Assembly (NCBI RefSeq): GCF_004116725.1
Contig: NZ_PDKG01000001.1
Coordinates: 1 to 64,000 of the forward strand
Direction: 5' to 3'
DNA from: Arcobacter sp. CECT 8986
Lineage (GTDB): Bacteria > Campylobacterota > Campylobacteria > Campylobacterales > Arcobacteraceae
DNA length: 64,000 bases
In this document: positions 22,665 through 50,494 of the stretch, piece after piece
How the letters are laid out: every line of letters begins with the position of its first letter
How positions within the stretch are numbered: the first letter of the stretch is position 1
Notes under the pieces: generated by a model
The model's database searches: none
Told to the model about the DNA's origin: nothing
Seen by the model: the letters and a program-made list of their open reading frames with translations, nothing else
Made by a program: the position numbers and the translations under genes

Positions 22665-24905
22665 TTATAAAAGTATTTCTCTATTACCTTTAGCATTTGC
22701 TTCAGATAAAACACCAGTTTTTTCAAGTTGTTCTACAATTGTTGCAGCTCTGTTATATCCTATTCTTAATTTTCTTTGGATATAAGAAATAGAAGTTTTT
22801 TTGTCAGTTAAAACCACTTGTTTAGCATCTTCGTAAAGTTCATCTAACTCCCCTAGCTCAACTCCAGTTGCACCAGATATATCAGAATTATTTCTATCTT
22901 TTACAAAGTTCATATCATACTCAACTTCTCTTTGATCTTTTAAGAAATCAACAACTTGTTCTATTTCATTTTCCATTGACCAAGGGGCATGAATTCTAAC
23001 TAAACCTGACACTCCAGGAGGAGTAAATAACATATCTCCACGTCCTAGTAATGATTCTGCACCTAGTGAATCTAAAATTATTTTTGAATCTACTTTTTGA
23101 CCTACTTTATATGATAACCTACTTGGTAGATTTGCTTTAATAAGTCCTGTAACAACATCAACAGATGGTCTTTGTGTTGCAACTATAAGGTGAATTCCAC
23201 TTGCTCTTGCCATTTGTGCAAGTCTTGCAATTGAGTGCTCAACATCTTTTCCACTTGTCATCATTAAATCTGCTAACTCATCAATAACAACTACAATATA
23301 AGGGAAAGGTTCATATTTCTCTTTTTTTGCTTTTTCATTATAGTTTTCAATATTTTTTGTTCTTGTTTGAGACATCAAAGTATATCTTCTTTCCATCTCT
23401 GCAACCATATTTGATAAGGCATTAATTGCATCAGTTGCTTTTGTTATAACAGGTGTTAATAAATGAGGAATATCATTATACATTGAAAACTCAAGCATTT
23501 TTGGATCAATCATCACAAGTTTTAAATTATCTGGAGAATTTTTATATAACAATGATAATATCATTGCATTAATTCCAACAGATTTACCAGAACCAGTTGT
23601 TCCTGCAATTAATAAGTGAGGTAATTTTTTCAAATCAGTTACAAATGGCTTTCCTACAATATCTTTTCCTAAAATCATAGTTAAAGGTGATTTTGCATTT
23701 TGAAAAATTTCACTTTCTAATAATTCTCTTATATATATTGTTTGCATATCATCATTTGGAACTTCAATACCAACTACATCTTTCCCTGGAATTGGAGCTT
23801 GAATTCTGATTGTTTGGGCTTTTAAAGCCATCGCTAAATCGTCTTGCAAATTTAATATTTTTGATACTTTTACATTTGGTGCTGGTTTAAATTCAAATGT
23901 AGTTACTACAGGTCCTGTATAAGTTCTTACAACATCACCTTCAATTTTAAACATCGCTAATTTATCAAGTAAATCACCTATTTTTTTATCTATTACTGCT
24001 TCTGAAACTTTAGATTTTTTCTCTTTAGGTGAAGCTTGGAAAAATTTAGTTGATGGAAGTTCAAAATCTTTTGGCTTTTCTGTTTTTCCCAACTCAATTT
24101 CATCAAGAAGTTTTTTATTCTCTTCTAATTCATCTACTATAATTCCATGTTGAGTAGCTAATTCTTCAATATTATTAGCCTCTTCTACATTTCCTTTTTC
24201 AATTTGATTTTCTATTACTTCTTTTACAGAAGATTCATCTATTTTTTCTTTTTTTACTAAATCTTTGAACTCTTCAATATTTTCTATATTATCAAGAGTA
24301 GGCTCTATTAATATCTCAGCAGTATCACCCTGCTCTTTTATAGTAATTTTTTCTTCTTTTTGCTCTTTTTTTATTCTTCTATTTGAATCATTCTTTTTAA
24401 CTTTAGCTCTTTTACTAGGTGCTGAAGGGTCTCTTTTTGGAAGAGCAATATTTATATTTGGCATTTTTACTTTGAAATTAAAATTATTATCTTCAAATAA
24501 AACAGTAACAGTTATAACAAATCCAACAAGCACAAATATCCATAAACCAGCGTTTCCAATAAAAGGAGTTAAATCATCAACTATAATTGAACCTATGATT
24601 CCACTATATATTTTAGATTCAACAACTAAAGCTTGTAATGTAAGAGAACTAAATAAAAGAAGAATTACAACCATAGTTTTTAAAGAAAAATCTGCATAAT
24701 CGAAATCCTCTTTAAAATTGATAATATAAAGAGGATATAAAAATAAGAAAAGATAAATATATGAAAGATACCCAAAATATTGATGTGAAATTTGAGCAAA
24801 AATATATCCTATCTTCCCAACACTTTGTTGAGTTGATGCAAATACTGAAAATTCTAAATAAAATATAATAAAAAGTAAGATTAGTGATAAAATTTTCTTA
24901 ACTAT
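22665..24905 (-). CDS. ftsK: DNA translocase FtsK, probable ATA start
   Basis: The conventional start at 24674 gives 669 residues but cuts into the membrane region. The same frame stays open to 24923 and adds helices such as ILSLILLFIIFYLEF and YLSYIYLFLFLYPLYIINF, as expected for FtsK. No ATG, GTG or TTG exists in this stretch. The best start is ATA at 24905-24903, with AAAGG seven bases upstream, giving 746 residues. Further on are an acidic linker, the motor with Walker A GTTGSGKS (about 436-443) and Walker B VVVIDELADLMM, and a gamma winged-helix domain (YIQRKLRIGYNRAATIV). FtsK pumps DNA at the septum and activates Xer recombination at dif, which fits xerH here. It follows lpxD directly. 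Confidence 0.93.
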   Translation of the reverse strand: MVKKILSLILLFIIFYLEFSVFASTQQSVGKIGYIFAQISHQYFGYLSYIYLFLFLYPLYIINFKEDFDYADFSLKTMVVILLLFSSLTLQALVVESKIYSGIIGSIIVDDLTPFIGNAGLWIFVLVGFVITVTVLFEDNNFNFKVKMPNINIALPKRDPSAPSKRAKVKKNDSNRRIKKEQKEEKITIKEQGDTAEILIEPTLDNIENIEEFKDLVKKEKIDESSVKEVIENQIEKGNVEEANNIEELATQHGIIVDELEENKKLLDEIELGKTEKPKDFELPSTKFFQASPKEKKSKVSEAVIDKKIGDLLDKLAMFKIEGDVVRTYTGPVVTTFEFKPAPNVKVSKILNLQDDLAMALKAQTIRIQAPIPGKDVVGIEVPNDDMQTIYIRELLESEIFQNAKSPLTMILGKDIVGKPFVTDLKKLPHLLIAGTTGSGKSVGINAMILSLLYKNSPDNLKLVMIDPKMLEFSMYNDIPHLLTPVITKATDAINALSNMVAEMERRYTLMSQTRTKNIENYNEKAKKEKYEPFPYIVVVIDELADLMMTSGKDVEHSIARLAQMARASGIHLIVATQRPSVDVVTGLIKANLPSRLSYKVGQKVDSKIILDSLGAESLLGRGDMLFTPPGVSGLVRIHAPWSMENEIEQVVDFLKDQREVEYDMNFVKDRNNSDISGATGVELGELDELYEDAKQVVLTDKKTSISYIQRKLRIGYNRAATIVEQLEKTGVLSEANAKGNREILL

Positions 24906-24915
24906 AGTAAAGCCT

Positions 24916-25863
24916 TTATTTCTTTAATAACATAGCTATTTTACCTTGTAGTTTTAGCCATGCTCTATGTTCCATCAATGGAAAACCTGCCCAGAATTTT
25001 TTAGGAGTAGTTATTGATTTTGTTACTCCACCACGTGCAGCTATTGTAGTAAAAGGTGCTATTTCTAAATGCCCCGCTGTTGCACTTTGACCACCCATTA
25101 TTACATACTGATTTAAAATTGTAGAACCTGAAAGTCCAACTTGTCCTGTAAGAATTGTACCTCTTCCTAATTTACAATTGTGCCCAATATGAACTAAATT
25201 ATCAATTCTAACACCATCTTCAATAATAGTAGATTTAAAAGCAGCTCTATCAATTGAAGTATTAGAACCAATCTCTACATCATTACCAATTAGCACATTT
25301 CCATTTTGATAGATTTTTACATATTTTCCATTATTATTTGCAAAACCAAATCCATCACTACCAATTACAGTTCCAGCGTGAATGATACAATCACTACCAA
25401 CTTGACAATCTCTATATACTGTAACATTTGGATAAATAACTGTGTTATCACCTATTTTTACATTATCTCCAATAAATGCACCAGCCATAATCGTACAGTC
25501 TTTACCAATTATTGTATCTTTACCAATATATACATTTGGTAAAATATTAGTATTTTCTCCAATAATTGCTTCATTACCTTCTGTTTCTATTAAATTAGGA
25601 GCAAAAAACTTACTTGCTTTTGCTAATGCAATGTAAGGTTCTTTACAAACTAAGGCAATTGTACCTTGAGGAACTTGATTTGAAAACTCCTCTTTTACAA
25701 AAACTGCTGCTGCTTTTGTTGCAGATAAATCATGTACATATTTTTTATTTTCTAAAAACGTAAGTTCGTGTTCATTTGAGTCTTTTAGTGTATTTAAAGA
25801 AGTGATTTCAATATCACTATCACATTTTATATCTAATGCTTGAGCTATCTCATTTAATTTCAT
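24916..25863 (-). CDS. lpxD: UDP-3-O-acylglucosamine N-acyltransferase LpxD
   Basis: 315 residues. The N-terminal uridine-binding domain has LTFLENKKYVHDL (about 34-46). It is followed by a left-handed beta-helix of hexapeptide repeats (about 100-270), for example NVYIGKDTIIGKDCTI and VHIGHNCKLG with the catalytic His. It adds the N-linked acyl chain in lipid A synthesis in the cytoplasm. It starts 46 bases after ilvH, in the same direction, and its stop codon overlaps the AAAGG site of ftsK. The length and all key motifs are normal. Confidence 0.95.
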   Translation of the reverse strand: MKLNEIAQALDIKCDSDIEITSLNTLKDSNEHELTFLENKKYVHDLSATKAAAVFVKEEFSNQVPQGTIALVCKEPYIALAKASKFFAPNLIETEGNEAIIGENTNILPNVYIGKDTIIGKDCTIMAGAFIGDNVKIGDNTVIYPNVTVYRDCQVGSDCIIHAGTVIGSDGFGFANNNGKYVKIYQNGNVLIGNDVEIGSNTSIDRAAFKSTIIEDGVRIDNLVHIGHNCKLGRGTILTGQVGLSGSTILNQYVIMGGQSATAGHLEIAPFTTIAARGGVTKSITTPKKFWAGFPLMEHRAWLKLQGKIAMLLKK

Positions 25864-48741: not shown

Positions 48742-49626
48742 CTATTTTTTAATCTTTTTTTGTTGAATAAACAATCCAAATATTATCATTATTAATCCAA
48801 ATAGTGTAGAAATATATATTTTTTCACCCAATATAAAATATATAAATATTAAAGATAAAAAAGGAGAAATAAATATTAGGTTTGCGATTTTTGCGGTATT
48901 ATTTGTGTGATTCATTGCATAAAGCCAAAATAAAAAAGTAATTCCCATTTCAAAAAGCCCCACATAAATTGCTGCAAAAACACCTGTATAAGCAGGATAG
49001 AAAAACTCATCATTAAAATACATATATATTATTATGATTGGAACAGCTATTAAGAAGTTACAAAATAAAGCTACAACAGCATCTTGTTTTTGTTTTGTAT
49101 TGAATATCCAATATAAAGCCCAAATAATTGTACTAAATAAAGCTAACCCTACTCCTGTCAAATCAGAGAAGTTCATAGAAAAAGGCTCACCTTTAGTAGA
49201 TATTATCAAAACTCCAAAATAACAAACAATTCCTGCAACAATATCAACAAGTCTTAACTTTTGTTTTAAAAATGGTACAGCAAGAAAAGATAACATAAGA
49301 GCCCACGTATAATTTATTGCTTGTGCTTCTTGTGCTGGCAATAGATTATATGCTTCAAATAAAATCAAATAATACATAAAAGGATTTAATAAGCCTAAAA
49401 TAAAAATAAGTTTAATATTTTTTATTAAATGTTCAACAACTAAATAAAACTTTTTTTGAAAAACCAAAACAATAAATAAAACAAACAAAGAAGTAATAGA
49501 TGCTAAAAGTAAAAGCATAACAGGAGATAAATAAGCCAATGCAATTTTAAAAGCAGTAGCAACAGTTGACCAAAGGAAAATTGCACTGAGCGCAAACTTA
49601 TAAGCTAAATTTTCTGAATTTTTTAT
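48742..49626 (-). CDS. EamA/DMT-family transporter, probable ATA start
   Basis: A TTG at 49539 would give 265 residues but loses the first helix. The same frame continues to 49645 and adds ENLAYKFALSAIFLWSTVAT, the conserved first helix of EamA proteins. No ATG, GTG or TTG lies in that extension. The best start is ATA at 49626-49624, with AAAGG seven bases upstream, giving 294 residues and the full ten helices; ATC one codon earlier is the alternative. Conserved parts include QAINYTWALMLSFLAVPFLK and FEMGITFLFWLYAMNHT. Substrates of such drug/metabolite transporters are usually unknown. It stands alone. Confidence 0.82.
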   Translation of the reverse strand: MKNSENLAYKFALSAIFLWSTVATAFKIALAYLSPVMLLLLASITSLFVLFIVLVFQKKFYLVVEHLIKNIKLIFILGLLNPFMYYLILFEAYNLLPAQEAQAINYTWALMLSFLAVPFLKQKLRLVDIVAGIVCYFGVLIISTKGEPFSMNFSDLTGVGLALFSTIIWALYWIFNTKQKQDAVVALFCNFLIAVPIIIIYMYFNDEFFYPAYTGVFAAIYVGLFEMGITFLFWLYAMNHTNNTAKIANLIFISPFLSLIFIYFILGEKIYISTLFGLIMIIFGLFIQQKKIKK

Positions 49627-49747
49627 GATTTTACCTTTAAAATTTTATAAAAAAATGACAACTTTGTGTATTTTGGCATTCTATTAAGATTAGTTTAACT
49701 CTAATTAGTTAATAATTTTATAAAGTAAAAGTATTAGGATAAAAATA

Positions 49748-50494
49748 ATGAATAAATATAAGCAATTACAAAAGGAATCTAGTGCTTTAAATATCTTATT
49801 TATAGAAGATGATGATGATTTAAGGCTTCAAACTGAAAAGATATTAAAAACATTATTCAACAATGTTGTAACTGCAACAAATGGAAAAGAAGGTTTAGAA
49901 AAATACAAAGAGTTTTATAATGTAAATAGCTACTATTTTGATATAGTAATTACTGATATTAAAATGCCTCTTAAAAATGGTATTGAACTTACTAAAGATG
50001 TACTTAAAATAAACAAAGAACAAGATGTTATTGTAATCTCTGCATATGAAGATTCAAAATATCTAATTGAACTAATAAATATAGGTATAAATAATTTTGT
50101 TCAAAAACCATTATTAATTGATCAATTAGTTGATCCTTTATTAACTATTTGTAAAAAAATAAATAGTAATAAAGTAGAATCAGAAAAAGTATTCCTAATA
50201 GAAAATTTTGTATGGAATAAAGAGAATAAAGCATTATATAAACAAGGGAAATTAGTAAAACTTTCATCAAGTGAAGTAGTACTATTAAACTTATTAATCA
50301 ATAATCCTTTTATTACTTTTTCAAACGAAGATATTTACAACACAATTTATAGTGATAAATATGATAAAGAATTAAGTATAGATTCTATTAAATCCTTAAT
50401 AAAAAGAATCAGAAAAAAGATTCCAACAGATTTTATAAAAAATATTTATGGTGAAGGTTATAGAATAAATAAAGATGTATTTGTAAAACTTTAA
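49748..50494 (+). CDS. OmpR-family response regulator
   Basis: 248 residues. The receiver domain (about 14-135) has the acidic cluster FIEDDDDLR, the phosphoacceptor in VITDIKMP (Asp near 78), the Ser of VISAYED and the Lys of VQKPL. The winged-helix DNA-binding domain (about 155-245) has KLSSSEVVLLNLLINNP and YGEGYRINKD. No sensor kinase lies next to it. The kinase at 61652-63559 in this window is a possible partner only by proximity. It is followed by two AT-rich hairpins. Confidence 0.9.
   Translation: MNKYKQLQKESSALNILFIEDDDDLRLQTEKILKTLFNNVVTATNGKEGLEKYKEFYNVNSYYFDIVITDIKMPLKNGIELTKDVLKINKEQDVIVISAYEDSKYLIELINIGINNFVQKPLLIDQLVDPLLTICKKINSNKVESEKVFLIENFVWNKENKALYKQGKLVKLSSSEVVLLNLLINNPFITFSNEDIYNTIYSDKYDKELSIDSIKSLIKRIRKKIPTDFIKNIYGEGYRINKDVFVKL

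Follow-up and report, generated by a model that had tools for sequence, protein, structure and literature searches.

A putative AUA start codon for an EamA-family transporter gene of Arcobacter sp. CECT 8986, and conserved AUH starts of ftsK and other genes, interpreted as weak starts acting through IF3

The gene for an EamA-family transporter, located on the minus strand of the 64,000-nucleotide stretch of Arcobacter sp. CECT 8986 DNA analysed here (the window), appears to start at an ATA codon, and the explanation that we consider very probable overall is that this is a weak start, selected to limit translation through IF3. The basis of this reading in the sequence comprises the reading frame, the Shine-Dalgarno (SD) site, the conservation of AUA, AUC or AUU (AUH) at the start column, the exchange with AUG in sister lineages and an ordinary initiator tRNA. 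For the cell, it would imply initiation at AUA, a low yield, dependence on IF3 and selection retaining the low yield. The features of the locus are the following:

48742..49626, minus strand: EamA-family (drug/metabolite) transporter gene, 294 aa from ATA (Pfam PF00892, E 2.4e-32, two repeats)
49624..49626, minus strand: ATA, proposed EamA start codon; ATA in 6/6 genus genomes, ATA, ATC or ATT in 23/49 family copies, ATG in others
49634..49638, minus strand: AAAGG, putative SD site of EamA, 7 nt 5' of ATA; AAAGG(A) at equal distance in 6/6 genus genomes
49645..49647, minus strand: in-frame TAA closing the EamA frame upstream, seven codons 5' of ATA
49627..49629, minus strand: ATC, alternative EamA start, rejected; the column reads ATC, GTC, ACT, ATC, GTT and ATT across the six genus genomes
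49537..49539, minus strand: TTG, first canonical codon in the EamA frame, rejected as start; TTA in G003, within the first conserved helix

Reading frame analysis of the window demonstrates an open frame of 300 codons (49644-48742, minus strand), and a scan of this frame detected no ATG, GTG or TTG upstream of the TTG at 49539-49537, which is codon 36. Within the 300-residue translation, the EamA-domain Pfam match begins at residue 14, and a start at TTG would therefore remove the beginning of the domain; both results agree with the first-pass annotation, according to which the protein lacks its first helix when started at TTG and the extension contains none of the three canonical codons. This TTG, which is inside the helix and not conserved, was rejected as the start. 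The product scores 112.5 bits against the PF00892 curated cut-off of 28.2, with two stretches matched, and 79.5 against the YddG equivalog, under the cut-off of 300. An AAAGG seven bases upstream of ATA 49626-49624, also described in that annotation, is present (49638-49634), and the recurrence of the layout at ftsK had been taken there as a signal. However, AAAGG-N7-ATA was rejected as evidence by itself: the window has 27% GC and contains 6 matches, compared with 5.93 (sd 2.34) expected from shuffled sequence. Since the layout is common by chance at this base composition, the case must rest on comparison. What survives of the argument from two cases is that each is conserved in 6/6 genus genomes, and the above-chance signal for EamA and ftsK is the open frame plus conservation.

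Several additional features of the locus were noted. The gene, which is one among many EamA paralogues of the genome, shares a short intergenic region (49660-49800) with an OmpR-type response regulator in divergent orientation (49724-50494, plus strand), and the element TTAAACTAATCTTAAT in this region is preserved in several genus genomes. A terminator-like hairpin followed by a T run (TTGCGCTCAGTGCAA TTTTCC; 49595-49581, minus strand) lies within the first-helix codons of EamA, with 1 found vs 0.0 expected in shuffles, and might reflect coding constraint or early attenuation.

Orthologues of EamA, with 68-88% identity, were found in all six genus genomes, and in each the start column is ATA and the spacing to AAAGG(A) is identical. 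The first-pass annotation had named the ATC at 49629 as a possible start instead; because the codon preceding ATA varies among these genomes while ATA stays constant, the ATC was discarded. Four of the six copies have no canonical codon from the in-frame stop to the conserved Trp, and in the remaining two such a codon stands 28-29 codons 5' of this Trp, without an SD. Judged from this comparison, ATA is almost certainly the start codon. The opposite interpretation, that the AUH codons are internal Ile codons and that translation starts at another upstream codon or reaches the frame by a frameshift from an upstream ATG, appears extremely improbable. In its favor, an 18-codon ORF (49679-49623, minus strand), with its ATG 53 nt 5' of ATA and its TAA overlapping ATA, is found in G000 and G003, and in G005 an in-frame ATG precedes ATA by 11 codons; but the ORF is missing from the other four genus genomes, and the ATG of G005 lacks both an SD and conservation. 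Moreover, in-frame stops are close upstream in most copies (two codons from the ftsK AUH in four genomes), the codons between stop and AUH are unconserved, and there is no canonical start in 13/49 EamA and 29/30 tatD copies. The short upstream ORF was also considered as a coupling device and rejected, given its presence in 2/6 genus genomes only.

At the family level, 47 of 104 genomes match EamA at 1e-60, giving 50 rows, of which 49 could be read at the start (L030 was unreadable). The likely start is ATA, ATC or ATT in 23/49 and canonical in 26/49 copies, so part of the family does without the weak start. The AUH starts are usually 17 codons 5' of the first-helix Trp, and among the canonical copies (24 ATG and 2 GTG) an ATG occupies exactly this position in 13. 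No ATG, GTG or TTG is found from the in-frame stop to the Trp in 13 of the 49 copies. An SD motif accompanies AUH in 21/23 copies, with none listed for G090 and G092; four of the AUH copies (G065, G067, G068 and G069) are ambiguous, with an in-frame ATG four codons upstream that overlaps the SD and could be the start instead. Sister pairs (G024/G006, G088/G089 and G068/G069) swap ATT and ATC, never to G. Outside the family, a canonical codon, mostly ATG at or near the column, precedes the helix in 78 of 80 related loci of named genomes, the two others being that of Poseidonibacter lekithochrous (L347) and a shortened locus (L349). Because of this distribution, canonical EamA starts are probably older, and AUH would have been gained within Arcobacteraceae.

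For ftsK, which is needed for division in other bacteria, the sequences make a stronger case for an AUH start than those of EamA. The corresponding features in the window are:

22665..24905, minus strand: ftsK, 746 aa from ATA (Pfam FtsK_4TM, FtsK_alpha, FtsK_SpoIIIE, FtsK_gamma)
24903..24905, minus strand: ATA, proposed ftsK start codon; the column is AUH in 58/73 and TTG in 15/73 readable genomes
24913-24917, minus strand: AAAGG, putative SD site of ftsK, with the layout as at EamA

The two elements (AAAGG 24917-24913, ATA 24905-24903) are arranged as the first-pass annotation had described, and ATA with constant SD spacing is found in 6/6 genus genomes. For ftsK, as for EamA, ATA is clearly the best candidate start. 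Starts were read in 74 loci (73 readable) chosen as reaching the N-terminus from matches in 99 and 296 genomes, with families f2, f6 and f13 outside the reading. Across ten families, the column holds AUH in 58/73, UUG in 15/73 and AUG in 0/73; G140 has an ATG two codons 5' of its TTG. All 58 AUH codons are preceded by an SD-like motif 5-8 nt upstream, and in G064, G065, G066 and G049 an in-frame stop two codons 5' of AUH leaves AUH and one codon. AUH is used in 41/42 readable ftsK genes of Arcobacteraceae and in 17/31 outside this family, where it occurs in 8/9 other families read, making 9/10 of the Campylobacterota families covered. Given this breadth and the use of AUC and AUU in relatives, AUH is best viewed as a gene-specific trait and not as a quirk of one genome.

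A search for further such genes, which the first-pass annotation had recommended, proved productive. Two 400-kb genome blocks were compared with the syntenic blocks of relatives (270 testable genes in block 1; 80 in block 2, for which a single comparator was used) under the criterion that the frame be conserved ahead of its first canonical codon; AUH genes that happen to have such a codon close by escape this screen. Conserved AUH behind an SD was found for 4/270 genes in block 1 (EamA, ftsK, aat and tatD), and block 2 added 2/80 with conserved AUH, both outside the window:

G000:C2:152751-154136, plus strand: DbpA-type RNA helicase with a putative AUH start, from the screen and profile-based naming
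G000:C2:169764-171446, minus strand: HD-domain protein with a putative AUH start, preceded by GAAGG, not AAAGG

Together, AUH starts were assigned to 6 of 350 testable genes over 800 kb, or 1.7% (exact 95% interval 0.6-3.7%). Most of the flagged genes were dropped by eye, their codons showing ordinary ATG/TTG starts or conserved leaders; in one of the screening rounds, codons were read for 19 of 34 flagged genes. AAAGG at N6-8 is found in 5/6 AUH genes vs 46/227 genes of the genome with a conserved canonical start (Fisher p 0.002), the starts of the latter being ATG in 188, TTG in 31 and GTG in 8. For tatD, 30 family loci were read of 100 genomes matched, and all have AUH (ATA 29, ATT 1) at the column of the M-x-I-D that usually begins TatD proteins. 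The codon preceding it varies (ATC, AAA, CTC, CGC, CTT or ATT), no canonical start lies between stop and AUH in 29 of these copies, and an SD motif is present in 27/30, the three without it (G001, G002 and G004) all being of the Arcobacter genus studied. Among 30 aat loci read by eye (71 genomes matched), AUH occurs in 6/6 genus loci and 5/6 loci of genus g10, and ATG or TTG is common elsewhere.

Some of these patterns would also be expected if the starts had drifted, that is, if ATG decayed to ATA or ATT in a 27% GC genome wherever expression matters little, so that their weakness is unselected. Such a base composition alone could convert ATG to ATA, EamA has many paralogues in the genome, and its start state switches at least six times on a tree of 34 rows. 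On the same tree, which has weak internal support and long outgroup branches, the AUH label nevertheless clusters, requiring 6 changes vs a mean of 10.6 in shuffles (0/500 as low), and the uniform AUH of tatD is likewise unfavorable to drift. The lack of AUG at the column in all 73 readable ftsK genomes speaks further against it, because back-mutation should often restore AUG. Drift is thus rather unlikely to explain the data, and selection has probably maintained the weak start of EamA and ftsK.

According to the first-pass annotation, AUA starts may be tolerated throughout this organism, for instance through a variant IF3 or tRNA. Loosened start selection of this kind appears very improbable. 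Two identical copies of the initiator tRNA, read from a subset of 43 tRNA matches, are ordinary, with a CAU anticodon, C1.A72 and a GGG:CCC anticodon stem; a variant copy may exist among the other matches. IF3, encoded by infC (L048, G000:C14:24192-24695), which starts with TTG in 6/6 genus genomes, is full length, but its C-domain lacks several arginines of the E. coli protein (R99S, R112K, R116E and R147K), while Tyr75 and R168 are retained; these six residues are presumably important for start discrimination. These substitutions, which might loosen start selection, are the point in favor of a permissive IF3; against it, the closest solved chain is 2m71, which this IF3 resembles, and the PDB includes a further bacterial IF3 with Ser at the position of E. 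coli R99. A relaxed organism would moreover be hard to reconcile with the rarity of AUH among the testable genes, its recurrence in the same orthologues across species and its extension at ftsK to nearly all families read. Since most conserved canonical starts are ATG and the same genes carry AUH across species, the trait belongs to the genes, and because it reaches beyond the family and the initiator tRNA copies read are ordinary, a tRNA or IF3 cause is unsupported.

We therefore return to a selected weak start. The AAAGG seven bases upstream would position the 30S subunit at the EamA ATA (49626), and fMet-tRNA, through its CAU anticodon, would pair with AUA with a mismatch at the third position. 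A review describes discrimination by IF3 against starts without a 3' G (PMC4611024). IF3 would thus disfavor AUA, AUC and AUU and hold EamA translation low, the low level being predicted because AUH starts form the class that IF3 disfavors. Changes in IF3 activity could then raise or lower the EamA yield, in the manner of infC, pcnB, sigR and ccpN, and the device may be common to a small set of genes in the family, including ftsK, tatD, aat, the dbpA-type helicase and the HD-domain protein. On whether the AUH-start genes are regulated in response to IF3, the considerations for and against appear to us evenly balanced. A Campylobacterota AUH regulon, in which synthesis of FtsK, TatD, the EamA exporter, Aat, the DbpA-type helicase and the HD-domain protein would track IF3 and ribosome state, is a speculative and unlikely extension; if true, it would make chromosome translocation and division depend on translational capacity.

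Gene finders limited to ATG, GTG and TTG would truncate the N-termini of such proteins, removing the first helix of the transporter and ~76 residues of FtsK. Gene-specific weak starts can account for puzzling ATA starts without invoking a strange organism. The weak ftsK start in 9/10 Campylobacterota families, considered beside the TTG of E. coli ftsK, suggests that high FtsK synthesis is strongly selected against, and the ftsK AUH is well suited to testing IF3-dependent control beyond E. coli, Staphylococcus and Streptomyces. In the open-licence literature, in which subscription journals are thinly represented, no report of AUH starts of ftsK, EamA or tatD, or of AUA starts in Arcobacter, was found.

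Weak starts of this kind are already known. Like E. coli infC (AUU) and its AUA and AUC relatives, the genes described here have a conserved AUH behind a good SD; unlike it, they are EamA, ftsK, tatD and others, infC of the genus starts with TTG, and autoregulation is inapplicable to EamA. E. coli pcnB (AUU) is similar in being a non-autoregulatory gene whose inefficient start limits yield, although gene and phylum differ. The AUU start of pcnB was reportedly described by Binns and Masters in 2002, and the codons read in the E. coli genome (NC_000913.3) are ATT for infC and pcnB and TTG for ftsK. In Staphylococcus aureus, infC (AUA), ccpN (AUA) and cvfC1 (AUU) are reported to combine AUH with a strong SD and to yield ~10% of AUG in reporters, with AUH usage of ccpN conserved as far as B. 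subtilis (PMC13009471). The likeness of EamA and ftsK to ccpN and cvfC1 lies in the conserved AUH and strong SD, but the staphylococcal starts are described as tested by ribosome profiling and reporters (PMC13009471), whereas those of EamA and ftsK are proposed from comparison. For sigR of Streptomyces, a non-canonical start is likewise reported to be kept by selection, with IF3 lowering the yield, and correct dosage can require a start of this kind (PMC5472188). In contrast to EamA and ftsK, the sigR start is GTC, not AUH, and sets stoichiometry with an anti-sigma factor (PMC5472188). Most likely, the starts of EamA and ftsK therefore represent a known kind of weak start, closest to that of infC, pcnB and ccpN.
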